60,447 nucleotides of DNA. Source: a virus. Made by a program: the position numbers and the translations under genes. Shown one piece after another: positions 3,715 through 58,833 of this stretch (the first letter of the stretch is position 1; the number at the start of each line of letters is the position of its first letter). The stretch spans positions 1 through 60,447 of IMG/VR virus record IMGVR_UViG_3300025000_000108; one strand, given 5' to 3'. The notes below the pieces were generated by a model. It was given only the letters and a program-made list of their open reading frames with translations. It was not told the origin of the DNA and did not search any database.

Positions 3715-4569
3715 ATGAAACTAAGGTGCAATTGCTGCGATGGTATTTATAACTCCTTAGATGTTCATTTTACTAGTGCTTGTGATAACAAATGTTCTCA
3801 TTGTGTTGATCTTTGTTATAAAGGTCTTGGTATAAAAAGGCCAAATGTAAGTGCAATAGTAAAAACAATATTAAACAACTGTAACAATATAGATGATGTT
3901 CTTTTCTTAGGTGGAGAGCCTTGTCTATACATAGACGAATTAATAGACTGTGTGAGACAACTGAAGTCCAGGACACAGCTAAAATTGTTTGTGACAACTT
4001 CAGTTCCTAAGATATGTTATGATAATAAAGATAAATTCTATGAGTTAATAGATCTTATTGACGGAATTAATCTCTCTGTTCAACACTATAAGGAGAATGT
4101 AGCTGATAAAATAAGACGGACAACTTCATCGTATGATAGACAATCTTTTTATTCTAACTTACCTAATAAGAGTAAAATTAGAATAAACCTAAATATTGTA
4201 AAACCATTCTTATATACAAAAGAAGATATATCGAATTGTCTTCGTCATTACGATAAGATGGGTTTCGATTCGATAAAAGTGTCTGAGATACAACATGGAG
4301 AAGATGTTTTTATCTCTTTCGAGGAGGTATTTAACTTAAAGATGAAATCCCCATACTCAAGTGGATGCCAGATGTACTTAAATATGAATAAAATATTAGG
4401 TGATTTTTCAACACCTGTATTACTAAAAAGATCTTGCTTCTTGTGTGAGGAAACACTAACAGCGTCTATCGCTGATGGTGTGAAAGTACTTCTGAAGTTC
4501 TTTAAGAAGAGTAGTAATGGCTATGGCGTTGTATATGAAGATGGGACATTAACAAAAGGGTGGATATAA
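3715..4569 (+). CDS. Radical SAM protein
   Basis: 284 residues. C23-X3-C27-X2-C30 in ACDNKCSHC would bind the 4Fe-4S cluster, and LFLGGEP near residue 65 is the GGE motif that contacts S-adenosylmethionine. The C-terminal part has three further cysteines (SSGCQMY and RSCFLCEE), which could bind a partial auxiliary cluster or substrate. The substrate is unknown. The stop codon overlaps the start of a 27-residue peptide ending in His-Cys-Gly-Gly-Gly-His-Cys-Ser. That arrangement would fit a peptide-modifying enzyme, but a repair or nucleotide-modifying role beside the UV glycosylase is also possible. Confidence 0.8.
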   Translation: MKLRCNCCDGIYNSLDVHFTSACDNKCSHCVDLCYKGLGIKRPNVSAIVKTILNNCNNIDDVLFLGGEPCLYIDELIDCVRQLKSRTQLKLFVTTSVPKICYDNKDKFYELIDLIDGINLSVQHYKENVADKIRRTTSSYDRQSFYSNLPNKSKIRINLNIVKPFLYTKEDISNCLRHYDKMGFDSIKVSEIQHGEDVFISFEEVFNLKMKSPYSSGCQMYLNMNKILGDFSTPVLLKRSCFLCEETLTASIADGVKVLLKFFKKSSNGYGVVYEDGTLTKGWI

Positions 4570-4652
4570 TGTTGTACACAAAAATTCTTAGAAGGGTTGT
4601 AAAAGTATTAGAAAGAATGGCAGGTCATTGTGGTGGTGGTCACTGTTCTTAA
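4569..4652 (+). CDS. 27-residue peptide with HCGGGHCS end
   Basis: ATG at 4569 overlaps the stop of the radical SAM gene (TAATG), implying coupled translation. The first 18 residues are amphipathic and basic (LYTKILRRVVKVLERMAG); the end is His-Cys-Gly-Gly-Gly-His-Cys-Ser. The layout looks like a leader plus a short Cys/Gly core, as in peptides modified by radical SAM enzymes. It may instead be a metal-binding microprotein, or not made at all. Confidence 0.45.
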   Translation: MLYTKILRRVVKVLERMAGHCGGGHCS

Positions 4653-4670
4653 TAGATAATAGAGGTAGCT

Positions 4671-4775
4671 ATGTTCATTAAGGTGCTAATAGCAATTGTA
4701 GTTCTACTTTTCGTAATCCTTGTGCTATCAGATGATGACCGGGATAATGATAGTACTAATGATAACCTCTTGTAG
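4671..4775 (+). CDS. Single-span membrane microprotein
   Basis: 34 residues: MFIKVLIAIVVLLFVILVLS forms one membrane segment, followed by a very acidic tail (DDDRDNDSTNDN). AGAGGTAGCT before ATG gives a ribosome site. It lies 18 bases after the Cys/Gly peptide gene. Function unknown. Confidence 0.5.
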   Translation: MFIKVLIAIVVLLFVILVLSDDDRDNDSTNDNLL

Positions 4776-4788
4776 AAAACGCTTAGAT

Positions 4789-4849
4789 TGACCTGTAAGC
4801 TCATTTTCCTACCAACCTATCCTACCCTACTGACCTATACCTAATCGTT
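4789..4849 (+). promoter_or_regulatory. Two-block promoter-like element, left copy
   Basis: Block A is TGACCTGTAAGC at 4789-4800, then 17 non-conserved bases, then a 32-bp block B at 4818-4849 beginning TATCCTACCC. Both blocks and the 17-bp gap recur on the minus strand at 34985-35045, in the same orientation to local transcription. Two conserved boxes 17 bp apart fit a -35/-10 promoter layout, and the phage encodes a sigma factor that could read it. In this copy the end of block B also pairs with downstream bases (TGACCTATAC with GTATAGGTCA). Confidence 0.6.
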
Positions 4850-4893
4850 CCGTATAGGTCATCCTCAGCCCTTTTAAGGGTATTCTAGTAATA

Positions 4894-4930
4894 GCACCTG
4901 CCAGAAATCTAGTAGCACCCTGGCAGGTGC
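4894..4930 (+). terminator. Hairpin in control region
   Basis: An 11-bp perfect stem (GCACCTGCCAG with CTGGCAGGTGC) and a 15-base loop, followed by CTCTTGTT. This is plausible as a terminator, though the loop is long. Confidence 0.45.
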
Positions 4931-4955
4931 CTCTTGTTAAGTTACAATAAGTACA

Positions 4956-4974
4956 GGGCTTCGTGCAGAAGCCC
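4956..4974 (+). other. Short GC-rich hairpin
   Basis: A 7-bp stem GGGCTTC/GAAGCCC with a 5-base loop. It was checked as part of a tRNA, but the needed T-arm and anticodon arm are absent. Its role is unknown. Confidence 0.35.
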
Positions 4975-5027
4975 AAGGCAGCTGCCGTTTGAGGCGATCT
5001 AGTAAAGATTCAAACAATCTATAGGTA

Positions 5028-5043
5028 CTAATAGTACTATTAG
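5028..5043. repeat. 16-bp perfect palindrome, copy 2
   Basis: CTAATAGTACTATTAG again, embedded in a 90-bp run of further TAGTACTA half-sites. Confidence 0.6.
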
Positions 5044-5159
5044 GTGTCATTAGTACTATTAGTACTATAGGTACTAATAGTATCTATAGTACCCATAGGT
5101 CTAATAGAAAAGAAGATAAATAATATTATTAACTTATCTATTAGGTATAGTCTATTAGC

Positions 5160-5200
5160 TTCTGTATGTGCTTTTAGTACATCTACGAGCACATACAGAA
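5160..5200 (+). repeat. Hairpin repeat A (TCTGTATGTGCT)
   Basis: A 13-bp perfect stem (TTCTGTATGTGCT with AGCACATACAGAA) and a 15-base loop. A second version of the same stem occurs at 5287-5325. Confidence 0.45.
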
Positions 5201-5253
5201 CCTAATAGGGTTGAGAGTACTCAAAAGGCTCTCTCTCAAGCGGCGAGGGCCTA

Positions 5254-5273
5254 GAGGTTCCTAACGGAACCTC
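5254..5273 (+). terminator. Tight hairpin between repeats A and B
   Basis: An 8-bp perfect stem GAGGTTCC/GGAACCTC with a TAAC tetraloop. There is no U tract; it could be a terminator or an RNA-stabilising structure. Confidence 0.4.
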
Positions 5274-5286
5274 GTCTAATAGATGA

Positions 5287-5325
5287 TCTGTATGTGCTTA
5301 TAGATGTACTAATAGTACATACAGA
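5287..5325 (+). repeat. Hairpin repeat B (TCTGTATGT)
   Basis: A 9-bp stem (TCTGTATGT with ACATACAGA) whose sequence repeats that of 5160-5200. It ends just before the AAAGGAG ribosome site of the gene at 5342, so it may affect that gene's translation or mRNA 5' end. Confidence 0.45.
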
Positions 5326-5341
5326 ACCCAAAGGAGCTAAT

Positions 5342-5425
5342 ATGTCTAAAAGCAATCTGTATTATCATAAAGATATTGACAGTTTAGTGCTATTAGTACC
5401 TCCTATAGAACCTAATAGGTGCTAA
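5342..5425 (+). CDS. 27-residue microprotein
   Basis: AAAGGAGCTAAT followed by ATG gives a strong start. The product is MSKSNLYYHKDI followed by a hydrophobic Leu/Val/Pro-rich end and a terminal Cys. No family is recognised; only the start signal supports it. Confidence 0.35.
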   Translation: MSKSNLYYHKDIDSLVLLVPPIEPNRC

Positions 5426-5537
5426 TGGGTGTGTTGGTCAGACTGGTAGGTGTGTAAGAGATTCTAATAGGATGGCAATATGCTTAGAAAATAATCAAGT
5501 GCATACTAGGGATCTTTAAGAGGTTAAAGGAGCTAAT

Positions 5538-10910: not shown

Positions 10911-11083
10911 ATCTATTTATACTGAACTCTAAGGGTAGTAATACAAATATGGATAGATGTATAATGGTAGTTAAAAATAAAGAAAAACTAGTTCTTTATG
11001 GTGGGGGGTTTAGAGGATCTAATGTAAGTTACTTTGATTTTAAGAGGAACGCAATAAAACTACATGAGAAGAGAAAAGAATAG
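10907..11083 (+). CDS. Small inter-gene cassette protein, family member 4
   Basis: 58 residues from ATG 10907, overlapping the previous stop by four bases (ATGA). MNLFILNSKG, MDRCIMVVKN, YGGGFRGSN and NAIKLHEKRKE follow the family plan strand by strand. It overlaps the primase-helicase gene by 20 bases. Confidence 0.55.
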   Translation: MNLFILNSKGSNTNMDRCIMVVKNKEKLVLYGGGFRGSNVSYFDFKRNAIKLHEKRKE

Positions 11084-12704
11084 ACCTTGCCAGGAGTGTA
11101 GAGCAGTAGGTCATGATAAGTCCGGTGACCATCTGTGGCTTATGTCAGATGGTTCTACATGGTGCTGTCAGAAACCATATCATAAACCTTACTTCGAGAG
11201 GGAAGGAGAACAGATAGTAGTTGACAGACCTAATAGACTGTTAGCATCTGAGGTATTTAATCTACCTATAGTAGAGAATAAGGATAGAGGTATCTTAGAG
11301 AAAGTAATGAAGAGGTTCAGGGTACGTACAGAGTTCTCTGAGGAGACAGGAGAACCTGTTAAGATTTATTACCCTGAGGCAACTAATGGTAAACCTATGG
11401 GGTATAAGATCAGGAAGTTACCAAAAGCCTTTTCAGTTATATATAGAGAAGGATATGGTAACGATAATGTACCTGATCTTTTCGGTGAGCACTGTTGCCC
11501 TAGAAGTGGAAATAGAATACTGGTGTGTGCAGGGGAGGAGGATACTCTTGCTGCCTACCAGATGATGATTAACAAGTACCCCGATTGGGAAGATACATTA
11601 GCAATAGTAGGTCTTCCCAGAGGTGAAGAGGGATCAGTAAATGTAGTAGCTGAGAAGCTATCATTCTTATCAGGATTCAAGGAAGTTATTATTGCAACTG
11701 ATATGGATGACGCTGGAAGAAAGGCATTATCCAAGATCATCCCTGTGGTTGGTGAGTCTGCCAGGATAATAGATTTCTCAGAGAAAGATATATCTGATAT
11801 GCTCACCAAGGGTAAGCAGAAGGAATTTATTAATGCTTACTTCTCCTGTAAGGAGTACAGACCTTCTTCTATTATCCAAGTAGCTGATGTTCTGGAAGAG
11901 GCTGTAACACCTGTAACGTGGGGCTTGAGTTACCCTTGGCCTTCATTAACTAAGCTAACCTATGGCATGAAGAACAATGGAGAGATTATAGGATTAGGTA
12001 GTGGACCAGGATCGGGAAAGACGACCTTCCTAAATCAGATACAAAAGCACATCATCTTTCAGCACAAAGAAAAAATAGCAATCTTTGATATCGAAGAAGG
12101 ACCAGTTATAGGTTTGAAGAAACTTATAGGGTCTGAGATGAGGAAGCCTATTCACCTTCCTGATTGTGACTACGATGTAGATAAGGCTAGGGAGATAGGT
12201 AGGTCATACAGCGGATATGCCAACTTCTATGGAGGTGACTCTGAGAATTGGGCAGAAGTGGAGGATGCTATTAGATACTTTGCCAGTAAGGGTATCAGAT
12301 TTTATTTCATAGATCCACTATCAGCACTAGTAGAGCATCTCTCTTCCTCAGATGCTAATACAGAGTTAGGTAAGATCATGAGAGCTATGAGGAAATTCAG
12401 AAAGCACCAAGGACTTACCTTCTTCCACGCTAATCACTTGAATAATCCTCAAAGTGGTAAGGATCATGGGGAGGGGGGTCATGTAAGGGGTTCTCAGTTC
12501 TCTGGTAGTAGGCACCAATGGAAGTACTCTACACTTCTATTGGGACTAGAAGGAGATCAGTTAGCTGAAGATCCTGGTGAGAAACACAAGAGGAAACTTG
12601 TTGTAATTAAAGATCGTCTTGGTGGTCACACAGGGTATGTTGACTTGAAGTATAATCCAGATACAGGGGTGCTAGAAGAAGATGAGTTCAGAGAGATGCT
12701 ATAG
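11064..12704 (+). CDS. Primase-helicase (T7 gp4-like)
   Basis: 546 residues. An N-terminal zinc motif (CQECRAVGH ... WCC, residues 8-38) serves primer-site recognition. A Toprim primase domain follows, with ILVCAGEED and EVIIATDMDDAGRKA. The C-terminal DnaB/RecA-type helicase has Walker A GSGPGSGKTT, a Walker B-like FYFIDPLSA and the GSRHQWKYS region. It makes primers and unwinds DNA at the phage fork with the polymerase encoded downstream. The length is close to that of T7 gp4 (566). ATG 11064 lies within the end of the preceding small gene. Confidence 0.9.
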   Translation: MRREKNRPCQECRAVGHDKSGDHLWLMSDGSTWCCQKPYHKPYFEREGEQIVVDRPNRLLASEVFNLPIVENKDRGILEKVMKRFRVRTEFSEETGEPVKIYYPEATNGKPMGYKIRKLPKAFSVIYREGYGNDNVPDLFGEHCCPRSGNRILVCAGEEDTLAAYQMMINKYPDWEDTLAIVGLPRGEEGSVNVVAEKLSFLSGFKEVIIATDMDDAGRKALSKIIPVVGESARIIDFSEKDISDMLTKGKQKEFINAYFSCKEYRPSSIIQVADVLEEAVTPVTWGLSYPWPSLTKLTYGMKNNGEIIGLGSGPGSGKTTFLNQIQKHIIFQHKEKIAIFDIEEGPVIGLKKLIGSEMRKPIHLPDCDYDVDKAREIGRSYSGYANFYGGDSENWAEVEDAIRYFASKGIRFYFIDPLSALVEHLSSSDANTELGKIMRAMRKFRKHQGLTFFHANHLNNPQSGKDHGEGGHVRGSQFSGSRHQWKYSTLLLGLEGDQLAEDPGEKHKRKLVVIKDRLGGHTGYVDLKYNPDTGVLEEDEFREML

Positions 12705-12855
12705 GGTTATAATAGATGGGTTAGATAGGTCAGATCATTTCGATTACTCCTCCACTGGTGAACACGATAAGGCAAAAAGATCTATTCATATTCTAGCGGA
12801 GGATGAACATACAATAGATGATGACATCTTACTCAAGTGTAAGTCCGATGAGTGA
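12682..12855 (+). CDS. Small hypothetical protein after primase-helicase
   Basis: 57 residues in another frame from ATG 12682, overlapping the end of the primase-helicase gene by 23 bases. It has Arg-Cys-Tyr-Arg-Val-Ile-Ile-Asp near the start and ends DDILLKCKSDE, so it may be a divergent member of the small cassette family. There is no strong ribosome site. Confidence 0.35.
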   Translation: MSSERCYRVIIDGLDRSDHFDYSSTGEHDKAKRSIHILAEDEHTIDDDILLKCKSDE

Positions 12856-12870
12856 AACGGAGGTGAGCGA

Positions 12871-13047
12871 ATGATAAGAGTCTGTCTAATACCACCAGAT
12901 CATAACATAAGCCCAGATTTCTCTAGGTGTATATGTTTCTATTATAAAAATCCAACAACACACACCAATGGGAAGATAATCAATGCACCTTCACTGATAG
13001 GTGTAGAGCTGGGGAACCCTATTATTAATCTTATAGAAAAGAAATGA
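12871..13047 (+). CDS. Small inter-gene cassette protein, family member 5
   Basis: 58 residues. ACGGAGGTGAGCGA precedes ATG 12871, a strong ribosome site. MIRVCLIPPD, FSRCICFYYK and NPIINLIEKK follow the family plan. Its stop overlaps the start of the polymerase exonuclease gene (ATGA). Confidence 0.55.
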   Translation: MIRVCLIPPDHNISPDFSRCICFYYKNPTTHTNGKIINAPSLIGVELGNPIINLIEKK

Positions 13048-13754
13048 CTAAGTTAATCTTCGATACAGAGTCAGATGATCTACTGTATGGTGCTACAGTA
13101 ATACACTGTATATCCTGTAAGGATAAAGATACAGGTGAGGTTCAATCATTTCCACCTGACAGTATACAAGAAGCTATAGGTGTGCTGTCAGGTGCTAAGA
13201 TGTTAATAGGGCATAACATAGCACAGTTTGATATACCTCTAATAGAGAAACTGTATGGTGTGAATCTCTTCAAACACTGCACTGTTAGGGATACTTACTG
13301 TATGTCTAAGTTGTTCTACCCTGAAAGGACACAAACAGTTGGTCACTCACTTGATAGTTACGGTAAGCAACTTGGTAGGTTCAAACCTGTGCATGAGGAT
13401 TGGTCTAAGTTCTCACCTGAAATGTTACACAGGAACGTAGAAGATGTAGAGATTAATTATCTATTATACGATCTTCTAGTCAAGCATAACTGTATGAGTT
13501 GGGATTGGGTTGAAGCACTAGAGTTGGAGCAACTCTTTGCATACTATCAGGGGTGGCAAGAAGTAGAGGGTGTGGATATAGATGTTGATCTATGTCATAA
13601 GATAGTAGCTGATATAGATAAAGAGGTGGAAGAGATTGATTCAATTCTGAAACCTATGTTACCTAAGAGGATAAAAGCTAAGGGGAACCCTATTATGAAA
13701 CCATTCAAGAAGGATGGGAGTTATATGAGTAAGGTGGTAGAGTGGTGGGAATGA
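13044..13754 (+). CDS. DNA polymerase, 3'-5' exonuclease part (split gene)
   Basis: 236 residues matching the N-terminal exonuclease domain of T7-type family A polymerase. Exo I is LIFDTESDD (D7, E9), exo II is GHNIAQFDIP (D63), exo III is RNVEDVEIN (D134). T7 has Tyr where this protein has Arg130 in exo III, so proofreading may be altered. The protein ends at VVEWWE, at the exonuclease/polymerase boundary. The polymerase part resumes 542 bases later as its own gene. The stop overlaps the next small gene (ATGA), so the parts are translated as a chain rather than by readthrough. Confidence 0.85.
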   Translation: MTKLIFDTESDDLLYGATVIHCISCKDKDTGEVQSFPPDSIQEAIGVLSGAKMLIGHNIAQFDIPLIEKLYGVNLFKHCTVRDTYCMSKLFYPERTQTVGHSLDSYGKQLGRFKPVHEDWSKFSPEMLHRNVEDVEINYLLYDLLVKHNCMSWDWVEALELEQLFAYYQGWQEVEGVDIDVDLCHKIVADIDKEVEEIDSILKPMLPKRIKAKGNPIMKPFKKDGSYMSKVVEWWE

Positions 13755-13927
13755 TCATACTGAAGTGGAATGAGAGAAGAGGAAACTATGAAGGCGGATG
13801 TCACGGTATACGTGGTAAAGAATTTAGGGGTCTATATGATTTAACCAGATGTGACACCATTGGGAATGAGATATATAGATTCTATGTAAAAGAAGAAATG
13901 ATGATACACTTAAAGGTGAAAGAGTGA
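13751..13927 (+). CDS. Small cassette inside split polymerase, family member 6
   Basis: 58 residues from ATG 13751, overlapping the exonuclease stop by four bases. MIILKWNERR, LTRCDTIGN and MMIHLKVKE fit the family plan. Its 3' codons for LKVKE hold AAAGGTGA, the ribosome site of the next gene. It is the first of three small genes that separate the two polymerase parts. Confidence 0.6.
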   Translation: MIILKWNERRGNYEGGCHGIRGKEFRGLYDLTRCDTIGNEIYRFYVKEEMMIHLKVKE

Positions 13928-14115
13928 ACGTAGGTGATACTGGTTTAGCTATCTACAAAGTACCTGATGGAGAGGGAGAATCTATGAGGTTAGTCTTAGT
14001 AAAGAAGGTAGCAAATACAGGGATTGAAGACTATAAGGTCCGCTCTGTACCTAGGGGTACTTGGGGTGGAAGTAGGTACAACAGAAGATTTATCTCTCTC
14101 AAGGAGCTAGTGTGA
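13924..14115 (+). CDS. Small cassette inside split polymerase, family member 7
   Basis: 63 residues, GTG start overlapping the upstream stop (GTGA). GLAIYKVPDG, SMRLVLVKKV, the Gly/Arg-rich turn PRGTWGGSRY and FISLKELV follow the family plan. AAGGAG inside the LKEL codons serves the next start. Confidence 0.55.
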   Translation: MNVGDTGLAIYKVPDGEGESMRLVLVKKVANTGIEDYKVRSVPRGTWGGSRYNRRFISLKELV

Positions 14116-14300
14116 AGCAACTTGCAACCTCAGTAAGACCACGAAGAGAGATGGAAAGGAGAACACTACAGGTTGTAGAGAAGAGAAAGGATAGTGATAT
14201 TGTTACTAATGAGAGAGGGGTAGTTAGTTTCAATCAGATCAGATGTGACTATGAGGAGGGTATATTTGATTGGAGAATCATAGTCCTGAAGGAAGTATGA
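14112..14300 (+). CDS. Small cassette inside split polymerase, family member 8
   Basis: 62 residues, GTG start overlapping the upstream stop (GTGA). It is basic, with RRTLQVVEKR, QIRCDYEEG and WRIIVLKEV. The codons for LKEV contain GAAGGA just before the polymerase-domain start. The most divergent of the three at its N-terminus. Confidence 0.5.
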   Translation: MKQLATSVRPRREMERRTLQVVEKRKDSDIVTNERGVVSFNQIRCDYEEGIFDWRIIVLKEV

Positions 14301-15388
14301 TACCAGATATAAAAGGACCATTCACCCGAATAGAGTGCTTAGATATTGATCTTAACTCTTTCGATCAAGTTAAGACCTATCTTCTCTCTATTGGCTGGAA
14401 GCCTACTCGGTGGAATGTAAGTAAAACTACAAGAGAAATAACATCCCCTAAGTTAACAGAAGATTCTTTTGACTCTATCGAGGGTGATCTTGGTAAACTT
14501 ATAGCACGAAGGTGGGTTCTCAGGCATAGAAGGAACACTGTTCAGAACTATAAAGACCCTGAGAATAAGGGTATCCTAGCTGCTATAAGAGAGGATGGGA
14601 GGGTAGCTGCTGAGGTTATAACATGTAATGCTGTTACTGGCAGGTGTACTCATACTGGTGTTGTAGTTAATATACCAAAAGCAAAACCTAAGCTCGTATA
14701 TGGAAAGGAGATGAGGAGTATCTTCTGTGTAAGAGATCCTTATGTGATGTTAGGTGCTGATTTAAAACAAATAGAAGCTGTGGTAACAGCACACTATGCT
14801 AACCTATTCGATGGTGGAGAGTACATAAAGGTGCTGAACAGTGTTAATAGTATCCACGATTATAATGCAGCTTTGATAGAGAGGGATAGAGATACTGCTA
14901 AGTCCTTCCAGTACTCTTTGTTCTACGGAGCCAGAGCACCTAAGTTGGCGTCAATATTAAAGTGCTCTAAGAAGAAAGCAGAAGTATACATAGAGAACTT
15001 TTGGAATGGTAATAAGGGGATCAAACTACTTATAGATTACTTAGAGAAATACTATAAGAAATATGGATTCATTAAAGGTCTAGATGGACGAAAGATATTC
15101 ATTCGAGCGGAGTACAAGTTACTCAACTCTCTTATCCAGACAGGTGCTGGAATTATCTTTAAGAAGTGGGGAGTTCTGGCGAACGAGGGACTAAGAAGAG
15201 ATGGTCTTCAGTGTTTTCAGATGATGAATTTTCATGATGAGTATGACTACAGGTGCCACCAGGATCATGTAGATGACTCCTCCTTTATAATCAAGGATGC
15301 AGCCACAAGGTCTGGTGAGTACTTCAAATTAGCAATGCCAGTGGAGGTAGATGTGAAAGTAGGTAAAAATTGGGCACAAGTTCATTGA
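14297..15388 (+). CDS. DNA polymerase, polymerase domain (split gene)
   Basis: 363 residues from ATG 14297, overlapping the previous stop (ATGA). It aligns with T7 gp5 from just after the exonuclease domain to the end. Motif A is GADLKQIEA (D155; the usual Glu-Leu-Arg is Glu-Ala-Val here). Motif B is RDTAKSFQYSLFYGA with the conserved Arg, Lys and two Tyr. Motif C is FHDEYD (D314). KGLDGRKIFIR and the C-terminal NWAQVH also match. It must pair with the exonuclease gene product to make a full enzyme, or work as a stand-alone polymerase. Confidence 0.88.
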   Translation: MIPDIKGPFTRIECLDIDLNSFDQVKTYLLSIGWKPTRWNVSKTTREITSPKLTEDSFDSIEGDLGKLIARRWVLRHRRNTVQNYKDPENKGILAAIREDGRVAAEVITCNAVTGRCTHTGVVVNIPKAKPKLVYGKEMRSIFCVRDPYVMLGADLKQIEAVVTAHYANLFDGGEYIKVLNSVNSIHDYNAALIERDRDTAKSFQYSLFYGARAPKLASILKCSKKKAEVYIENFWNGNKGIKLLIDYLEKYYKKYGFIKGLDGRKIFIRAEYKLLNSLIQTGAGIIFKKWGVLANEGLRRDGLQCFQMMNFHDEYDYRCHQDHVDDSSFIIKDAATRSGEYFKLAMPVEVDVKVGKNWAQVH

Positions 15389-15591
15389 TGTTCTTAGTGA
15401 AGAGTTATAGTAGATTTGATAGGATACCAGACCCCAATAATGTAGGTGTTGTTGGTGAGTTATTTGAAGAGGAGTCTAGATCTATAAGAGTAAGTGATAG
15501 AGATTCAGGGTTCTCACAGAGACTATTGTTTCCAGATACTTACTGGTGGTACGATAATAACTGGATCATAAAGTTAAAGGTGAAAGAGTGA
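15388..15591 (+). CDS. Small inter-gene cassette protein, family member 9
   Basis: 67 residues; ATG 15388 overlaps the polymerase stop by one base (TGATG). MFLVKSYSRF, the Trp-Tyr-rich turn WWYDNN and WIIKLKVKE follow the family plan. AAAGGTGA in the last codons leads into the next gene. Confidence 0.55.
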   Translation: MFLVKSYSRFDRIPDPNNVGVVGELFEEESRSIRVSDRDSGFSQRLLFPDTYWWYDNNWIIKLKVKE

Positions 15592-15788
15592 CAGAAATTT
15601 ATTTACTGAATAATCGTAAGGAACTGAGAAATGAGACTTACTTTGTTGAGGATGAGTCCCCAGGGTGGCACCCGAAGATGTCTCTGAATAATAGATCTAT
15701 AGTAGCCTCTGATCCACAGAGAGGAAATATGTGCCTAAAAGGATTCTACTATAAAGGCTCTTGGATAAAGAAACTTATACCAGTATGA
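15588..15788 (+). CDS. Small inter-gene cassette protein, family member 10
   Basis: 66 residues, GTG start overlapping the upstream stop (GTGA). TEIYLLNNRK at the N-terminus, a central Gly-Trp and SWIKKLIPV at the end. Its stop overlaps the sigma factor start (ATGA). Confidence 0.55.
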   Translation: MTEIYLLNNRKELRNETYFVEDESPGWHPKMSLNNRSIVASDPQRGNMCLKGFYYKGSWIKKLIPV

Positions 15789-16321
15789 AAGACTACAAGG
15801 ATCTCGCAGAGAACCACTACCAAGTAGTTGATATCATAGTTGATAAACTACTAAAGACAACTCAGTACAGACAGTATAAGGAGTACAGAGAGGAGCTGAT
15901 AGGTGAGGGTACTATCTCTCTTATGAAGTCAGCAAAAGACTTTGATCCTGACAGGGGTGTTAAGTTTGTAACTTACTGTTCTAAGAGGATAAGTCTAGAT
16001 GTAAAGAGGTACGTTAACAGGGTACTGTCACAGTATATTAGCCATCATTGGCATATAGACAGTATAGACGAAAATGAGTTACCCCTAATCGGTGAGGAAG
16101 AGGAGCAGAAGAAAGATGACGTAGAGATTGATTGGTGCAAGTACGAACCAGAAAGAGAAGTATACAAGAGTATCTACTATCGTGTTCTTCTGAATGGAGA
16201 ACCACAACGTGCAGTTGCTAAAGACCTTAACATAGGTTATAGTACCTTGAAGGTCTTTAAGACTAGAATTATTAAAGAACTTAAAAAGAAACTTACAGGA
16301 GAACAACATGCCGAAATGTAA
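15785..16321 (+). CDS. Phage RNA polymerase sigma factor
   Basis: 178 residues. Region 2 is clear: ELIGEGTISLMKSAKDFDPD, then RGVKFVTYCSKRI, the -10 binding helices of the sigma-70 family. The C-terminal AVAKDLNIGYSTLKVFKTRI is a helix-turn-helix of region 4 type. Length fits a small two-domain sigma factor. It would redirect host RNA polymerase to phage promoters; the two-block elements at 4789 and 34985 are candidate targets. No T7-type RNA polymerase gene is present. The start overlaps the upstream small gene by four bases. Confidence 0.85.
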   Translation: MKDYKDLAENHYQVVDIIVDKLLKTTQYRQYKEYREELIGEGTISLMKSAKDFDPDRGVKFVTYCSKRISLDVKRYVNRVLSQYISHHWHIDSIDENELPLIGEEEEQKKDDVEIDWCKYEPEREVYKSIYYRVLLNGEPQRAVAKDLNIGYSTLKVFKTRIIKELKKKLTGEQHAEM

Positions 16322-16796
16322 AGGAAAAGCTATGTGGGCTTTCACTCAACAACCAGACTCTAAGTACAACTGTTGGAAGGTAGCTCTCTACATCGACTCA
16401 ACAGAAGCTAAGAAGATGATTGATCTTGGTTTGAAGAAACAAGTTAGACGAGTAGACCCCCTGATGGAACCTGATAATGCTGCACTGGGTGAGTATGTAA
16501 TTAAGTTTTCTCGATATGTGAATGGTAAAGGGAAAGCTGCTGGTAAGAAGAATCCTAAACCAGAGGTTATCAATGTAGATAATGAACCTTTTGATGAGAT
16601 CATTGGAAACGGATCTGATGTTATTGTAAGGTTCAATGTGTACAAGTGGGGTCCAAATGCTTTTGGTTCTGGTATCGGTACTGATCTTGACGGTATCAAA
16701 GTTATTAATCATATTCCGTATGCACCCGTAGAAACAGTAGCTGACACTAAGGAAGAGGAATCTACCGTAGAAGCTGCTGAAGAGGATAAGTGGTAG
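16308..16796 (+). CDS. Single-stranded DNA-binding protein (T7 gp2.5-like)
   Basis: 162 residues. The OB-like beta region has YVIKFSRYVNGKG and VIVRFNVYKWGPNAFGSGIG, as in gp2.5, and the C-terminus is acidic with a final aromatic residue (EEESTVEAAEEDKW), the tail that contacts polymerase and helicase. ACAGGAG precedes ATG 16308, which lies inside the sigma gene. A strong terminator follows. Confidence 0.75.
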   Translation: MPKCKGKAMWAFTQQPDSKYNCWKVALYIDSTEAKKMIDLGLKKQVRRVDPLMEPDNAALGEYVIKFSRYVNGKGKAAGKKNPKPEVINVDNEPFDEIIGNGSDVIVRFNVYKWGPNAFGSGIGTDLDGIKVINHIPYAPVETVADTKEEESTVEAAEEDKW

Positions 16797-16879: not shown

Positions 16880-17131
16880 TTGAGTAATGAAAGTAAGTGG
16901 AGTAGTACATTTCAGTGGTGGGATAACAATCCTCCTGGTGAAGTCATACAGATTCCTATATCAGAGTTAATAGATTATGAATCTACATACACACATATGT
17001 TCAACTACCTGAGAGAGAAGGGGTGGACAAGAGAGGAAAACAAATGGAAGCACTCAGCTCCTGATAGGATCTTTAGAACAATACAAGAAGCATACGAATA
17101 TCAGATCTATTTCTTGGAGACTGTAAGGTGA
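16880..17131 (+). CDS. Hypothetical protein
   Basis: 83 residues. The start is TTG 16880, decided by the perfect AAGGAGG 5 bases upstream. Trp/Tyr-rich (WSSTFQWWDN, HMFNYLREKGWTREENKWKH), acidic to neutral. Overlaps the exonuclease gene by four bases. Family not recognised. Confidence 0.6.
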   Translation: MSNESKWSSTFQWWDNNPPGEVIQIPISELIDYESTYTHMFNYLREKGWTREENKWKHSAPDRIFRTIQEAYEYQIYFLETVR

Positions 17132-20358: not shown

Positions 20359-20541
20359 ATGGAACGTAATGTACGCATGTATCTAATATGGCAAGAACGA
20401 CAAGACCTTCCAGGTACTTCCAGGGTCAGACACTTCCCTAATATGAATGCTCTGAATGATTTCCTGTCAGCACTGGATGGTGCTAATGTGAAGTCTGTAA
20501 AGGTGCTGGCAGCTATGCTATTAGAAGAGAGGGAAGAGTAA
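20359..20541 (+). CDS. Hypothetical protein
   Basis: 60 residues, alpha/beta with RMYLIWQERQD and a C-terminal helix LAAMLLEEREE. ATG 20359 lies 3 bases after the phosphoesterase stop. GAGAGGGAAGAG at its end serves the next start. Not recognised. Confidence 0.5.
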   Translation: MERNVRMYLIWQERQDLPGTSRVRHFPNMNALNDFLSALDGANVKSVKVLAAMLLEEREE

Positions 20542-22146: not shown

Positions 22147-22347
22147 ATGAGTAAAAGGAAAAGAATATACTGTTCTAATAAAACCTGTGTGGTGCGTACA
22201 TGCTCTAGAAACATCTGCCATCACACAGGTAGATACTATAGGAACACTGATTGGATAAGGTTAGGTCCAGATACCTGTGAGTTATATAAGGGCTTAGAAA
22301 GATTTTCTACTTTGTTTCAAAAAGAGGAGATTGAAGAAGATGAGTGA
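22147..22347 (+). CDS. Small Cys-rich protein
   Basis: 66 residues. IYCSNKTCVVRTCSRNICHH is a tight cysteine cluster and DTCELY adds another; the C-terminus is acidic. It resembles in pattern the Cys-rich genes at 6062-6440. Overlaps the next gene by 8 bases. Confidence 0.55.
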   Translation: MSKRKRIYCSNKTCVVRTCSRNICHHTGRYYRNTDWIRLGPDTCELYKGLERFSTLFQKEEIEEDE

Positions 22348-25754: not shown

Positions 25755-26272
25755 AAGTTAAAGTGCTAAAAGAAGCAGGGTTTGAAGAGGCGCTGTTAGG
25801 TATTTCATTTAGCTATAATTCTACACCAAACAAGAAAGTAGCTGATAGACTGGCCTGGAAACAAGGAGGACATAATAAGTTCCTCGAAAGTATTATTGTT
25901 TGGCTAGATGTTACAGCCCCTCGGTACTGGTGGCAAGAATCAGATACCTACAGACACACAAGTAAGCAGTCCCAAGCTACAATCCATACAATTCAAAGGA
26001 GAACTCTTACAGAGGAAGACTTTGTAGATGGTGATATAGACCCTATAATCCTCTCTAGGGTTAATGAGATTATCTTAGAGGGTAATCTACTTAAGATAAA
26101 AAGAAATCTCCCAGAAGGGTTCTTACAGCGCAGAGAATGGAGAGTAGATTACAAGACCTTGCAGAACATCTGTATGCAAAGGAAAGGGCATAAGCTACCA
26201 GAGTGGCAGTTGTTTATTAGCTCCTTACAGGAGCAATTAGAACACTCTTACTATGTGGTGAGGCCAGAGTGA
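25751..26272 (+). CDS. ThyX-like or related phage protein
   Basis: 173 residues from ATG 25751; ATG 25736 is possible. WLDVTAPRYWWQESDTYRHT and SKQSQATIHTI recall the RHRxxSxNExS region of flavin-dependent thymidylate synthase. LQRREWRVDYKTLQNIC and RKGHKLPEWQLFI are shared with many phage proteins. The classic ThyX motif is not intact, so a true thymidylate synthase activity is unsure. The neighbours dUTPase and ribonucleotide reductase fit a nucleotide role. Confidence 0.5.
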   Translation: MKVKVLKEAGFEEALLGISFSYNSTPNKKVADRLAWKQGGHNKFLESIIVWLDVTAPRYWWQESDTYRHTSKQSQATIHTIQRRTLTEEDFVDGDIDPIILSRVNEIILEGNLLKIKRNLPEGFLQRREWRVDYKTLQNICMQRKGHKLPEWQLFISSLQEQLEHSYYVVRPE

Positions 26273-26580
26273 TAGGTGCTGTCAGAGAACAACTAAAAGT
26301 ACTGACTAGATCATCAGGTTGGTCTAAGGTAAGGAAAGAAGTTATCCAAAGAGATAAGGCTTGTAGAGTCTGTGGTAAAAAGAAGAACCTACAAGTACAC
26401 CACATAGTTCCTTTTCATATATTACCTCAGAGAGAGTTAGATAAAAATAACTTGGTGACTCTGTGTGGTAGGTGTCACCTACTTATAGGACATAAGGATA
26501 ATTGGAAAGACTATAATCTTAATGTAGCTACAGATGCTATGTGGATCTTAACTAAGATACTAAGGAGGGTGATTGATTGA
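26269..26580 (+). CDS. HNH endonuclease
   Basis: 103 residues, GTG start overlapping the upstream stop. CRVCGKKKNLQVHHIVPFH, then NNLVTLCGRCHLLIG, is a full HNH active site with its zinc cysteines. It could be a free-standing homing nuclease or a nuclease for host DNA or packaging. Confidence 0.8.
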   Translation: MIGAVREQLKVLTRSSGWSKVRKEVIQRDKACRVCGKKKNLQVHHIVPFHILPQRELDKNNLVTLCGRCHLLIGHKDNWKDYNLNVATDAMWILTKILRRVID

Positions 26581-50232: not shown

Positions 50233-50610
50233 TCAACCAGGAATACAGACTGCTTCTACGAGAGCTGTAGGTTGAACTACAGCCCGGCCAAATACTGCAA
50301 GTCCTCTCATGTACTCCCCGAAACTATCGGGAATGCGAAGGCTTTCGCTCTTGGTCAACTGAGCTGCGAAGCTCATAGCCTCTTTAGTACCTGCAAGTAC
50401 GTAGAAGAGAGTAGCAGTACCTTCCGTAGCAGTATACAGGTTGTTAGTTTGGATGACCTTTGTACGATCAATCATACCCACAACACCAGTGCGGAGAACA
50501 CCAGTGCTGTCTCCGGTAATGTCAGCAGATTTGAGATCACCCTTTTTCAGACGAGCGCAAGCCCACGCTGGCATACAGATCCAGCGATCAGCAGACGGGA
50601 TGTTTTGTTC
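50233..50610 (-). CDS. Major capsid protein, exon 2
   Basis: 125 residues from EQNIPSADRWICMPAWACAR to the stop. The sequence continues the capsid fold begun in exon 1; without splicing it has only a TTG at the intron end to start from. After removal of the 982-base intron the reading frame joins as ...VILD-EQNIP.... RWICMPAWACA and GRAVVQPTALVEAV are common to HK97-fold podovirus capsids. Confidence 0.8.
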   Translation of the reverse strand, partial: EQNIPSADRWICMPAWACARLKKGDLKSADITGDSTGVLRTGVVGMIDRTKVIQTNNLYTATEGTATLFYVLAGTKEAMSFAAQLTKSESLRIPDSFGEYMRGLAVFGRAVVQPTALVEAVCIPG

Positions 50611-51592
50611 CAATTAACCTAATAGGTTATCAGACTATTACTTTAACTTGCGTTTACACATTGTTTAGTCTTTGCATCTTGTTCTAAGTAACTTACCATT
50701 TCATTAATGATATAGTACTTCTTGTATAGACACATATACACACTTAGTTTTCTCAAGAATGATATGGAAAACATTTTATGTTTCTTTCCTAATCCTCTTC
50801 TCCAAGTGTAGTTATTATAATTTGGTTTTTCAGGATTTAGGTTAGCTCTAGCAACATTTCCCTTAAAAGCTTTTTGAATAAAGTGAAGTACATGGATATC
50901 TTTTTCATTTGCTACAGCAGATACCCTTAAGTTGTAATTACTTTTTTCTCCTCTAATTCTTTGTCTAAATTCAAAGTGACCATCACCTGCTAAATAACCA
51001 GCAAGCCATGACCAAGAGGGGTGCTTTGGTTGTTTGAGCCATCTAGAGTTATCTCTAGAACATTTTAAATAAGCTCTAAGATCTTCAATTTGATTGTCTG
51101 TTAGAACTAAATCTTTTATATCGTCGTGAATAGAAACGATATTATCAAAATGAGTACCTTTTATTCTTAGATGTTTACCTATTCTATTAAAAAGAATCTT
51201 AGAGTCCTTAGTTCTCATTACCCACCTGCAAGTAGATAGATGAGTATCTTTATCTCCATTACTATAGATAAGAGTTCCAAGACTAAAGTATTCTTTTATA
51301 GATCTTAACATAATAAAATCAGGATCATTAGACGCAGATTGAAGAAGACCACATTGTATTTGTAATCTATTCCTACAAAAATCTGCTGATATATACCCAT
51401 CTGAGTCTATTAATCCAGCTAAGAATTTATTTAGTTGTTCTGAGTGATTCCTATTTTCCTTTAATTGTCCAGAAATTAGTTTATAACCAAGTGTATTTGT
51501 GTTAAACAATTATCCCTCTCAACGAGTTATATAAACATTGATTCAGATTTTACTCTGTTATTTAAATGTGTTTTGATTGGACAAACTTATTT
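50611..51592 (-). mobile_element. Group I-like intron in capsid gene
   Basis: 982 bases. Exon 1 ends in T and the intron ends in G, as in group I introns, and splicing restores one frame. The intron holds a complete LAGLIDADG endonuclease gene. Near its 3' end, AAAGTAATAGTCTGATAACC could form the P7 region. I could not fold the whole RNA, so the exact edges may shift by a few bases. Confidence 0.75.
50643..51509 (-). CDS. LAGLIDADG homing endonuclease in intron
   Basis: 288 residues from a TTG at 51509 with GAGAGGG upstream. Two LAGLIDADG helices are seen: KFLAGLIDSDGYI (about 28-40) and WLAGYLAGDGHFEF (about 169-182), each with its metal-binding Asp, so it is a monomeric double-motif nuclease. 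It would cut intron-less capsid genes of related phages to spread the intron. It may also assist splicing. Confidence 0.85.
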   Translation of the reverse strand: MFNTNTLGYKLISGQLKENRNHSEQLNKFLAGLIDSDGYISADFCRNRLQIQCGLLQSASNDPDFIMLRSIKEYFSLGTLIYSNGDKDTHLSTCRWVMRTKDSKILFNRIGKHLRIKGTHFDNIVSIHDDIKDLVLTDNQIEDLRAYLKCSRDNSRWLKQPKHPSWSWLAGYLAGDGHFEFRQRIRGEKSNYNLRVSAVANEKDIHVLHFIQKAFKGNVARANLNPEKPNYNNYTWRRGLGKKHKMFSISFLRKLSVYMCLYKKYYIINEMVSYLEQDAKTKQCVNAS

Positions 51593-52165
51593 ATCCAAGA
51601 TTACGTTAACATCTACAATGAAATCTGTAGTGTTGTCAGCAGTCAGAGAAAGAGCATTAGAACCATTAGTTCCACCAGCAGCACCCATACTGATATTACT
51701 CAGTACACCTGCGGTAGCACCTCTGTTGTTGCTATCAGCTTTACCAACTGCATAGGTGAAACAGTTAGTATCAATAGAAATCTTAAGACGCTCTGCTGCA
51801 TCAGCAGCGAAAGTGTTCATAAGATTCAGATCGGTCTGAACTTCATCAATATCATCAATACGGAAAGACCAACTGAGTGCCTGGTCAATCATCAATTCCT
51901 TGTTTGCTTTCTCAGGAACTTCGTAAGTGAGAGTACCACCAACAACATAAGGGTTGATGGTGATAGCAGGGGTGGTCCGAATAAGAACCTTGTCTCCTTG
52001 GGCCTTAATTTCGCCCTGATAGTCCGTATTAGAGATCTCCGAGAACGCAGTCATTGCGTAGTAGTTACGAAGAACCTTTTTACTAAAAATTATGGGAGTA
52101 AACTTACTGGTTCCATCAGATGCATAGGTGTTGTAACCAGAGTCACGAGCGGGGCCATTAGCCAT
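51593..52165 (-). CDS. Major capsid protein, exon 1
   Basis: 191 residues before the intron. FSKKVLRNYYAMTAFSEISN, then GDKVLIRTTPAITINPY and SWSFRIDDIDEVQTDLNL, fit the HK97-fold capsid N-arm and E-loop of podoviruses. Unspliced RNA would end two codons later at TAA (51587). Joined with exon 2 the protein is 316 residues. It follows the scaffold gene. Confidence 0.82.
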
Positions 52166-55763: not shown

Positions 55764-56234
55764 TTAAATCGAATCTAAAAGTTTCTTTTCTAATCTTCTA
55801 CTCCGTATATTAGGAGTGTCCTTACCTGAGTTCCAAAGTACAAAGTCTCTGTGCCATTTAGAATCTATTAGTTCTTTAGCAGATTCTTTTATCTTTCCTT
55901 GTTGAAAGTATCTGAGAAACTTCTTGAAACCCAATAACCTAGTTAAACCTAAGTTGAATGCTAGTTCTATTAGCACTTCTACTTGTGGCTCCGAAGGCTG
56001 ATACTTCCACTCAAAGGTGAGCCAGTTGATATCTTTTGTAGCTATTGATATATCTGTCACTAGTTGTTTCAACCAGTACTCTTTCTTTTCCTTATCTGTC
56101 CAGGTAGCATTAAAAGATAGCCAATCTTGTGCTAGCATTAAATGACCATAACCACCTGTCCATTTATTCTTTGTATCTAGATAGGGGTCTTTCTTGTAGC
56201 CTTCTGATTGAATAATAGAATCTATTAGCCCCAT
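55764..56234 (-). CDS. Endolysin (T4-type lysozyme, GH24)
   Basis: 156 residues. Glu11, Asp20 and Thr26 in SEGYKKDPYLDTKNKWTGGY are spaced as in T4 lysozyme. ELAFNLGLTRLLGFKKFLRY is the C-lobe signature. No signal peptide, so it needs a holin. The first 118 bases are repeated exactly at 57062-57179, inside a chimeric open frame. Confidence 0.88.
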   Translation of the reverse strand: MGLIDSIIQSEGYKKDPYLDTKNKWTGGYGHLMLAQDWLSFNATWTDKEKKEYWLKQLVTDISIATKDINWLTFEWKYQPSEPQVEVLIELAFNLGLTRLLGFKKFLRYFQQGKIKESAKELIDSKWHRDFVLWNSGKDTPNIRSRRLEKKLLDSI

Positions 56235-56235
56235 T
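56118..56235 (-). repeat. 118-bp direct repeat, lysozyme copy
   Basis: Identical to 57062-57179. Contains the start and first 38 or so codons of the lysozyme. Identity over the whole length implies recent duplication. Confidence 0.9.
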
Positions 56236-56788
56236 GTTGAACAATAGCTTTCGCTATCCCCTCAAATGTTTTACTTCTATCTCTCTTCCTAGTGTCTGAA
56301 GGTGGCATCTTCCAAATTCTTTGCTCTCTGCCTTCTACAATATTCGTAGGAGTAAGATGTGGTAGGTTGTATAAAGCGAATCCAGTTCTCTTAGTCTCAC
56401 CGTGACCAAATTGCCAAGGTTGGATGTACTGAGTATTTTTAAGATACTTAAATATAACACTTACTGGGTTTTCTAAGGCTACTCTATTAGAGTATAGCTT
56501 AGATAATTCCCACAAAGAAAGTGTCCAATCTATTGCTTCTCTTCTCTTGTAGTTGAGTGGCATGTTATTCCCATACCACCTATTACCACTGACAGCCATA
56601 GCTGTGCAGTCTGGGTGAAGTATAATCAAATCCCAAGTTCTTGTTGGGATAACTCTCATTATATCTTCTTGGTAGTGCCAATCAGGGTTCCCTCTTGTTT
56701 CTTGTAAGTCGCAAGAAAAACACTCATAACCAGACTCTCTAAATTCTTTAGTTATAGTTTGGGACTCTTCACATCCAACTAGTATCAT
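56225..56788 (-). CDS. DNA methylase-like protein
   Basis: 187 residues from ATG 56788. MILVGCEESQTITKEFRESG, a Rossmann-type start; WDLIILHPDCTAMAVSGNRW with an Asp/Pro-Asp-Cys centre; ALENPVSVIFKYL. These match a phage and prophage family annotated as DNA cytosine methyltransferase-like, with the Glu-Asn-Pro motif. It may protect phage DNA from restriction. Lies between the chimeric frame and the lysozyme, as cargo. Confidence 0.65.
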   Translation of the reverse strand: MILVGCEESQTITKEFRESGYECFSCDLQETRGNPDWHYQEDIMRVIPTRTWDLIILHPDCTAMAVSGNRWYGNNMPLNYKRREAIDWTLSLWELSKLYSNRVALENPVSVIFKYLKNTQYIQPWQFGHGETKRTGFALYNLPHLTPTNIVEGREQRIWKMPPSDTRKRDRSKTFEGIAKAIVQQWG

Positions 56789-56806
56789 AATAAACCATAG
56801 GTGCAA

Positions 56807-57178
56807 TTACACCCACATAAACCTCGCTTGTTTAATAGGACGAGATATTAATCTGGACTTAGTTTCAAAGATAGCATCTCCGAAGGTGAGTGCCAGCGAG
56901 TCGGCTATGTCTGGTGATTCGTAACCCATTTTCTTCAAGTCCTTCTTGGCTAATAGCTGTATCTGCATCTTGCTGTTATAAAAGTATTCCATCGAAGTTA
57001 GCTGAGATATTAAATTAGTTTCCCTATCTTTACTGTAAGTTGGAATATCAGCTCCGTTATGTAGCCAATCTTGTGCTAGCATTAAATGACCATAACCACC
57101 TGTCCATTTATTCTTTGTATCTAGATAGGGGTCTTTCTTGTAGCCTTCTGATTGAATAATAGAATCTATTAGCCCCAT
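56807..57178 (-). pseudogene. Lysozyme-terminase chimera (recombination remnant)
   Basis: 123 residues. Residues 1-39 are identical to the lysozyme start (including Glu11, Asp20, Thr26); residues 36-123 match the C-terminal 88 of the large terminase, with scattered silent and a few amino-acid changes (SLALTF for AIALTF). The join is at Asp-Trp-Leu, where both genes share AGCCAATCTT on the plus strand. The product lacks both the lysozyme C-lobe and the terminase ATPase, so it is probably non-functional, though its frame is intact. Confidence 0.85.
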
Positions 57179-57424: not shown

Positions 57425-58833
57425 ACCCACATAAACCTCGCTTGTTTAATAGGACGAGATATTAATCTGGACTTAGTTTCAAAGATAGCATCTCCGAAGG
57501 TGAGGGCTATAGCGTCAGCAATATCAGGAGACTCATACCCCATCTTCTTGAGGTCTTTCTTTGCCATAAGCTGTATCTGCATCTTGCTGTTATAAAAGTA
57601 CTGCATGGATGTTAATTGGGATGCTAGATTAGTTTCTCTGTCTTTACTGTAGGTAGGAATATCGGCACCATTGTGGAGCCAATCTTTCATCTTGCCCCAC
57701 AACTGACTACGCAAGTTACAATAAACATTAGGTTCAGTTGATTTATTAGATACAATAACTTCTGCTACTGGAAGCCTTAACTGCTTACAACGATCATAGG
57801 TTCCAGCACCTACTCCGATGGAGTCAATAAATATCTTGTGGCAATTATGTATTGCTTGATACTCTGACACCTTAGACGCCACTTCCATGGTGTCGAGTCC
57901 TTTGAAGGTTCTGAAGTCAAGTATCTTTGGTCCTTGTCGAACACAGAAACAGGTAGAGTCATCACCAAAGCGAGCGACATCAATTGAGCCGATTTTAGGA
58001 AAGTTATTGTAGCTCTGAGGGTGAATGATGTTTCTAATACACTCTTCAACCACCTCAGAGGAGATGAACTGTGCTACACCTACGCGAGGGAATTTACCTT
58101 CTACACGCATTCTGTATAAATCGCTGTCAGTGCCGTATGTTTCGGCCATTTCAGCGATCCATGTCGCATTTACATTTGGGCTATCCTTCGCAGAGAAGTG
58201 AAGTTTAGTCCACCCTTGTAGATCCCTAGAGAACACTTCATAATAGCGTCCACTCGATCTAACTGGATTACTTACAAGGATGAATCTACCACCATTACCT
58301 GTAGATAAGGTCCCTAATAAGATGTCAAAAACTTCCTCAGTAACACCAGAGGCTTCGTCAATTATCGCGCAGTACGATTCGGAGTGTCCTCCTTGAAGCG
58401 ACTCTTTATTATCAACACTTGCTGTTATTAAGTTTGCTACTTGTACATACTTACTTGATCCTGTGTAGTCTATTCTCTCTCTGGTTATATTAAATAACTC
58501 TTGCAACTGAGGGATCATTCTTCTGTACATCTTAGTTACTTCGGAGTACATAACCCTTGATAATTGCTGGAAAGAAGGGGATGTGAGAAGTACTCTGCAA
58601 TCGGGTAAGATGATTAGATATAATAGAGTCATCATAGCAACACAGCAGGTCTTACCTGTCCCTGTTGCAGAAGCTACTGCTACCCTACATCTAGGGTCTT
58701 CGGCAGCCCTTACAAGCTGCTTTTGCTGATCTGTTAAACGGATCGAGAATATTGATTCTATTGCTGATACATGATCTTTAGACCAAGCAAGTATCAGTTG
58801 GCTGAACTCCTCTTGAGTTAAAGATCTAGGCAT
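57421..58833 (-). CDS. terL: Large terminase subunit
   Basis: 470 residues. Walker A ASATGTGKT (54-62), Walker B AIIDEA (Asp159-Glu160), then the RNase H-like nuclease with GSIDVARFGDD, IFIDSIGVGAG and ESPDIADAIAL carrying the metal Asp residues. The motor pumps DNA into the prohead and cuts it. The last 88 codons have a diverged second copy in the chimera at 56807; the final 80 bases or so are identical in both. Confidence 0.92.
   Translation of the reverse strand: MPRSLTQEEFSQLILAWSKDHVSAIESIFSIRLTDQQKQLVRAAEDPRCRVAVASATGTGKTCCVAMMTLLYLIILPDCRVLLTSPSFQQLSRVMYSEVTKMYRRMIPQLQELFNITRERIDYTGSSKYVQVANLITASVDNKESLQGGHSESYCAIIDEASGVTEEVFDILLGTLSTGNGGRFILVSNPVRSSGRYYEVFSRDLQGWTKLHFSAKDSPNVNATWIAEMAETYGTDSDLYRMRVEGKFPRVGVAQFISSEVVEECIRNIIHPQSYNNFPKIGSIDVARFGDDSTCFCVRQGPKILDFRTFKGLDTMEVASKVSEYQAIHNCHKIFIDSIGVGAGTYDRCKQLRLPVAEVIVSNKSTEPNVYCNLRSQLWGKMKDWLHNGADIPTYSKDRETNLASQLTSMQYFYNSKMQIQLMAKKDLKKMGYESPDIADAIALTFGDAIFETKSRLISRPIKQARFMWV

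Follow-up and report, generated by a model that had tools for sequence, protein, structure and literature searches.

Can a replicative DNA polymerase that is encoded as two genes, with further small genes lodged between them, still work as one enzyme, and what are the genes in the gap for? The question is raised by the virus record IMGVR_UViG_3300025000_000108 (IMG/VR), all 60,447 bases of which were analysed and are referred to here as the window. In place of the single polypeptide of a T7-type family A DNA polymerase, the window carries two open reading frames (ORFs) 542 bp apart, the upstream one for the 3'-5' exonuclease (exo) and the downstream one for the polymerase (pol), and eight relatives likewise have two ORFs. 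An earlier note on this DNA had reported both ORFs, three frames of 58-63 codons between them and ATGA or GTGA overlaps, all of which we confirmed: each junction is a 4-nt overlap (ATGA at 13044, then ATGA, GTGA, GTGA and ATGA), the pol half is preceded by a Shine-Dalgarno (SD)-like GAAGGAAG, and a chain of three linked ORFs of at least 55 codons arose in 0 of 20,000 dinucleotide shuffles of the gap's 550 bases, two linked ORFs arising once. Both halves matched PHROG 17 over adjacent ranges, exo at 670-893 (E = 1e-36) and pol at 898-1232 (6.8e-70); the pol half also matched Pfam DNA_pol_A (2.8e-31) and T7 gp5 (1.8e-26, chain residues 318-698 of 1skr), and the fold predicted for the exo half from an alignment with seven relatives had T7 gp5 residues 1-230 as its top match (Z 19.6). 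The acidic exo residues D7, E9, D63 and D134 are invariant across the split relatives, and the pol residues D155, R198, K202 and H313-D314-E315 are invariant in A5; pol motifs A, B and C, with the catalytic Asp, Arg/Lys and HDE, are all in place. Compared with L013 (KKYFGDDYPKVKGLYTK) and L004 (SWFDDYSIVDGCFSR), no residues have been lost in the window relative to unsplit relatives, which upholds the note's statement that the halves together cover a T7-type gp5. Judged by its sequence, the locus specifies a T7-type family A polymerase in the form of two distinct proteins.

The break had been placed by the note at the boundary between the two domains, and this proved wrong. In unsplit relatives a single chain leads from a conserved KPFKKxGxYxxxVxxW motif across variable sequence to a GPFTRI motif, whereas in the window the first motif closes the exo protein and the second opens the pol protein. 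When a profile of 30 unsplit relatives was aligned to T7 gp5, the cut fell at about residues 306-322. Residues 269-288 and 294-302 of T7 gp5 have been assigned to the thioredoxin-binding domain (TBD), with helix H1 starting at 339 (PMC9198812), and TBD residues 300-314 are disordered in crystal 2ajq (PMC8867116); the alignment position and these limits together place the cut inside the TBD of the thumb. On this alignment the break runs through the thumb tip, in the loop where T7 gp5 bears its TBD, and not at the exo/pol boundary, so that the exo half bears the first part of the thumb. A model of the unsplit L014 protein (mean predicted local distance difference test score, pLDDT, 92.6; T7 gp5 fold match with Z 37) has the cut in its least confident loop, residues 241-260 (pLDDT 68), between helix 233-238 and strand 263-270. 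When the exo half was modelled alone from a shallow alignment of 8 sequences, its last 34 residues (203-236) were of low confidence, as would be expected for a segment that folds with its partner. The thumb-tip site varies in length among unsplit relatives, and the window's equivalent of the T7 thioredoxin-binding loop is both shorter and cut. T7 gp5 has the same fold and motifs and its clamp loop at the cut site, but it is a single chain.

Searching relatives for unsplit genes or different inserts, as the earlier note had suggested, yielded both. Among the first 245 loci and control records, 212 had a full-length unsplit polymerase; the window's own clade was recovered afterwards, by a closer search, and the thumb-loop cut was present, with different inserts, in eight relatives on independent contigs (L093, L247, L248, L252, L254, L259, L263 and L095; L246, L251 and L249 are longer copies of L093, L095 and L094). 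Clade A consists of the window with L093 (pol 61% identical), L247 (58%), L248 (57%), L254 (44-56%, in two pieces) and L263 (46-66%, in two pieces), and clade B of L095, L252 and L259, with pol 41-49% identical to that of the window; L255 has a related pol half, its exo half lying off the contig. In all nine phages the pol half has its own start codon 2-5 residues before a conserved G-P-[FY], at the same alignment position. Because the same split occurs in eight independent contigs, it is not an assembly artefact. In a 68-row tree, clade A (100/99) grouped with unsplit L013 and L216 (100/96), clade B (100/99) lay elsewhere, and a tree forcing the two clades together was rejected (p-AU 0.0005); fission at the thumb site would then have arisen at least twice, or have been gained and followed by re-fusion. 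Purifying selection between L093 and L247 was strong on both halves (ratio of non-synonymous to synonymous change, pN/pS, 0.14 and 0.15), and exo and pol identities ranked together across the phages (Spearman 0.75, 36 pairs), as would be expected of co-inherited partners. In the phage collection no isolate was more than 60% identical to clade A or B, and exact peptide patterns of the window's pol or small protein B retrieved no close relatives. A scan of genome contigs gave two distant relatives, one unsplit and the other with exo and pol on separate ORFs (a metagenome-assembled genome contig labelled archaeal). L184, first counted as a thumb split, was set aside: it has a single in-frame TAA (L184:6101) in the same loop, which is intact in its sister L167, and the stop codon is possibly a mutation or a sequencing error.

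Sequence comparison establishes the split, its site and recurrence and the changing gap contents described below; it also shows that the motifs are intact, that both halves are under selection in relatives and that no intron is detectable. We consider it likely that these findings reflect a two-subunit replicative polymerase that arose by gene fission, with halves that rejoin noncovalently and small genes that are accessory. The exo subunit would comprise the 3'-5' exonuclease together with the initial segment of the thumb, and the pol subunit the remainder of the thumb, the palm and the fingers, with the chain break at a flexible thumb-tip loop that should accommodate two additional chain ends. 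The genes would be co-transcribed as one operon; a promoter and terminator scan found no coding-strand terminator between the halves and no more promoter-like sites than in shuffles. Translation would be coupled by re-initiation at the ATGA and GTGA overlaps, the ribosome-binding sequences lying inside the preceding gene. Since both active sites are intact and the pol half alone is without part of the thumb, reassembly is likely, most plausibly through the shared thumb. The pol half alone presumably cannot work normally, because exo holds part of its thumb, and function probably depends on reassembly of the two proteins, of the kind known for split T4-type polymerases. The note's view of the halves as separate or reassembling subunits therefore stands for the two separately translated proteins and is likely, at one remove, for their reassembly.

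What the gap holds bears on whether the small proteins belong to the enzyme. Gap lengths in the nine phages are 542, 1091, 559, 596, 504, 1011, 2717, 295 and -26 bp. In clade A the gap contains three tiny genes in the window, three and an Endonuclease_7 gene in L093, four in each of L247 and L248, three in L254 and five in L263. The three that L093 and L247 have in common are under purifying selection (pN/pS 0.38-0.56, about 1 in other frames), which marks tiny gap genes as real. This selection, the presence of three to five small genes in all these phages, junctions that suggest coupled translation, and the one small protein family found in the exo/pol-boundary gap of L004, L118 and L122 would all suit working subunits that bridge the cut thumb loop or replace the thioredoxin clamp, much as the earlier note had imagined in suggesting that the small proteins may be part of the complex. 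The clade B gap, however, holds about nine other, unrelated genes in L095 (~2.7 kb), and two small genes in L252. L259 has none: its two halves share a 26-nt overlap, and its DNA is 75-85% identical to that of L252 along the gene. At non-synonymous sites the gap small proteins change about 1.5-6 times faster than the halves (L093 vs L247), and exo and pol are also flanked on their outer sides by comparable trains of tiny genes, some of which are tandem paralogs in relatives. The window's three gap proteins, moreover, had no detectable homologs, even in clade A, in Pfam, PHROG or the relatives' tiny genes, nor did small protein B in viral contigs, unlike other small window genes (16880-17131, 20359-20541 and 22147-22347), which are recognisable in clade A. 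Pfam and PHROG returned only unsupported matches for the small proteins (E > 0.1), and comparison of the window's gap and flanking small genes with the relatives' tiny genes gave one chance-level match (E 0.05), the reversed control giving one at 0.018.

Given the differing gap contents, the lack of homologs and the similar outer trains, we regard a subunit role for the small proteins as unlikely, and this part of the note's proposal fared poorly. Less likely again is a specific form of it in which the gap tiny proteins of clade A bind the loop ends KPFKKDG...W (exo) and GPFTRI (pol) as a fast-evolving clamp replacing host thioredoxin; if true, it would account for the two openings of this loop and for the persistence of tiny genes in it. 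Their fast evolution, the want of homologs for the window proteins, the trains flanking exo and pol and the empty gap in one relative suggest that the window's small proteins are probably passengers, accessory and not required polymerase parts. The simplest reading is that trains of real, fast-evolving tiny genes fill operon junctions, including one opened inside the polymerase. Tails reading -LKVKE or -LKVRR end tiny proteins at 13907-13927 and 15573-15591 and in L093 and L247; they apparently stem from the next gene's ribosome-binding sequence read in the frame set by the 4-nt overlap. Shared '-LKVKR' tails were accordingly set aside as a sign of homology, since at ATGA and GTGA overlaps the SD sequence has a fixed frame and would on its own yield such a tail.

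Separate halves could also serve to set the dosage of exo and pol, for example by supplying a pol form without proofreading, which we think a remote prospect. Separate start codons and ribosome-binding sites would allow it, and other phages, split at the exo/pol boundary, would have a pol protein whose thumb is entire; here, in contrast, the cut is in the thumb, a free pol half is without part of the thumb and its loop motif, and between the halves the coding strand shows no conspicuous promoter or terminator.

Group I introns occur in phage polymerase genes, for example in HMU phages, and they occur elsewhere in this same gene in the same clades, which makes it worth weighing whether the 542 bases are an intron, or whether a split intein or ribosome bypassing links the halves. 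No Rfam intron match was found in 12800-15600 even at E<=10, none in the window at the gathering threshold, and no group I intron match in any thumb gap of the nine phages, although the same search had seven relatives as positive controls, detecting a group I intron where a conserved motif site is broken: immediately ahead of the HDE motif in L013, behind motif B in L254, L255 and L259, behind TGRxxH in L263 and L265, and in L285 as well. The introns of L263 and L265 carry GIY-YIG-like ORFs. Introns in the polymerase gene were located at L263:7810-9000, L265:1262-2607, L254:9557-9968, L259:4105-4425 and L013:2332-2640, at three different motif sites. The polymerase genes of L254, L259 and L263 each combine an intron at a conserved motif with an intron-free thumb gap, and whereas the introns of L013, L254, L263 and L265 interrupt the gene as spliced RNAs at conserved motifs, the thumb gap bears no intron signature. 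An intron in the window's gap was therefore rejected. A gap that ranges from -26 to 2717 bp with different genes also speaks against the idea, and a split intein was rejected because neither half has an intein-sized extension, exo ending within about 30 residues of KPFKKDG and pol starting 2-5 residues before GPF. We give splicing and bypassing very little credence; the note's exclusion of a frameshift or an intron was borne out by the blank Rfam search and by the pol half's own start codon in nine phages. Hardly credible at all is a decayed polymerase in a damaged or misassembled genome: the window is a single metagenomic contig with other interrupted genes, but the split recurs in eight independent contigs, the catalytic residues are intact and pN/pS is low in both halves of L093 and L247.

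As to how the fission came about, invasion by a mobile endonuclease is a plausible cause, given the Endonuclease_7 gene directly before the L093 pol half (the only one at a cut site), HNH-like genes, which in L247 and L248 lie after pol (judged by eye), and the interrupted primase-helicase of L093. A NUMOD4-HNH gene, for which Rfam gave no group I match, breaks the latter (L093:1019-3473) close to its Walker A motif; the primase-helicase of L248 is intact, as is that of the window.

Several points weigh against fission into two subunits with accessory small genes. Tiny genes are found in the gap of all six clade A members whose gap is visible, and a positional requirement for them in that clade is conceivable. 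The single contig L259 could represent a gene that has re-fused and carries a one-base error; in either case it has no small gene remaining in the gap. The rank correlation between exo and pol also follows from plain vertical descent, all clade members are uncultured contigs, and no endonuclease gene was found in the window's gap with Pfam or PHROG, so that a homing origin is not supported for this phage.

Among known systems, the closest likeness is to the split gene 43 of the T4-like Aeromonas phages 25 and 44RR and the split nrdA of Aeh1, in which an essential replication gene is likewise in two ORFs; the products 43A and 43B of phage 25 (family B) co-purify and polymerise, and the split nrdA is active (PMC2988022). 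In those cases the gap holds a homing endonuclease gene or an untranslated spacer, whereas here it mostly holds trains of tiny genes; the polymerase family and the cut site also differ from gene 43, and here the same site appears to have been split at least twice. With homing-endonuclease-type splits the window shares two ORFs where unsplit relatives have one, and it has no endonuclease at the site. The Methylophilales phages MEP401 and MEP402 encode a family A polymerase in two ORFs (gp13 and gp15) with a small gp14 (77 aa) between, an arrangement found in most group I genomes of that study, whose authors proposed a possible intron (PMC10580990). The MEP401/MEP402 gap gave no Rfam intron match at the gathering threshold. 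The MEP401 cut lies in the palm, just before motif A, and the window's in the thumb loop, so that the two breaks were rejected as the same event.

A second break point within this gene is the true exo/pol boundary (L014 residues 155-165), where Podoviridae sp. ctwe8250 (MW202615, L004), L118, L122, L136, L141, L161, L250 and L253 are split, some with small genes between; there the pol protein keeps the whole thumb, unlike in the window. To explain this break, the well-supported branches of the tree call for at least three changes, and parsimony for five (L250; L253/L290; L161/L127; L004/L118/L122; L136/L141). One small protein family (...RIDGMYSxC...H.AA...VE...) is common to three of these gaps (L004:3493-3699, L118:4966-5175 and L122:4204-4431) and makes a stronger candidate than the window's proteins for a small protein linked to the polymerase. 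In L122 an RNA ligase gene (4413-5507; PHA02142 OB-fold and RNA_ligase) also lies between exo and pol.

The polymerase locus belongs to a replication module (Table 1), and other genes of the window are interrupted as well. On the minus strand, the major head protein gene (PHROG 267; 50233-52165) is in two pieces: model positions 33-202 are encoded at 51587-52165 and 202-323 at 50233-50613. A LAGLIDADG endonuclease ORF (50643-51509) separates them, and Rfam gave no intron match. At 55764-57178, also on the minus strand, two ORFs open with the same lysozyme N-terminus (MGLIDSIIQSEGYKKDPYLD...) and have a DNA methyltransferase gene (56225-56806) between them, an arrangement suggestive of an insertion by which the beginning of the endolysin gene was duplicated or displaced. 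More HNH and endonuclease VII-type genes lie at 26269-26580 and 58826-59479, the second adjoining the terminase large subunit; by gene content, the window genome is rich in endonuclease genes. A repetitive ORF of AARAAIAA units in low-complexity DNA occupies 2218-2481 on the minus strand.

Table 1. Genes of the split polymerase locus and its surroundings in the window.
Feature	Position	Strand	Description
Exonuclease subunit	13044..13754	+	236 aa, TGA stop; 3'-5' exonuclease domain and first thumb part; C-terminus ...KPFKKDGSYMSKVVEWWE
Small gene A	13751..13927	+	58 aa; ATG start overlapping the exo stop codon; no Pfam/PHROG match
Small gene B	13924..14115	+	63 aa; GTG start; SD-like AAAGGTG upstream; no homolog in viral contigs
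Small gene C	14112..14300	+	62 aa; GTG start; no supported Pfam/PHROG match
Polymerase subunit	14297..15388	+	363 aa; ATG start, begins MIPDIKGPFTR; remaining thumb, palm and fingers; motifs A, B and C intact
Small gene directly upstream of exo	12871..13047	+	58 aa; ATGA overlap; flanking tiny-gene train
Small gene downstream of pol	15385..15591	+	68 aa; tiny-gene train
Small gene downstream of pol	15588..15788	+	66 aa; tiny-gene train
Primase-helicase, T7 gp4-like	11064..12704	+	546 aa; uninterrupted in the window; Pfam DnaB_C/Toprim
Sigma-70 region 2 protein, after the pol locus	15761..16321	+	Pfam 9.3e-7
Gp2.5-like single-stranded DNA-binding protein	16308..16796	+	Same replication module; PHROG 112 4.9e-9

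Split polymerases as such are already known; for a cut in the thumb loop, made repeatedly and with gap contents that turn over while the split persists, no description was found in the open-licence papers searched. The loop marks a natural break point at which a single-chain replicative polymerase can become a two-subunit one. For annotation it carries a warning, as at least 540 bp of small genes can sit inside one enzyme, and for the biology of these phages it raises the question of how the polymerase stays processive without an intact clamp loop.

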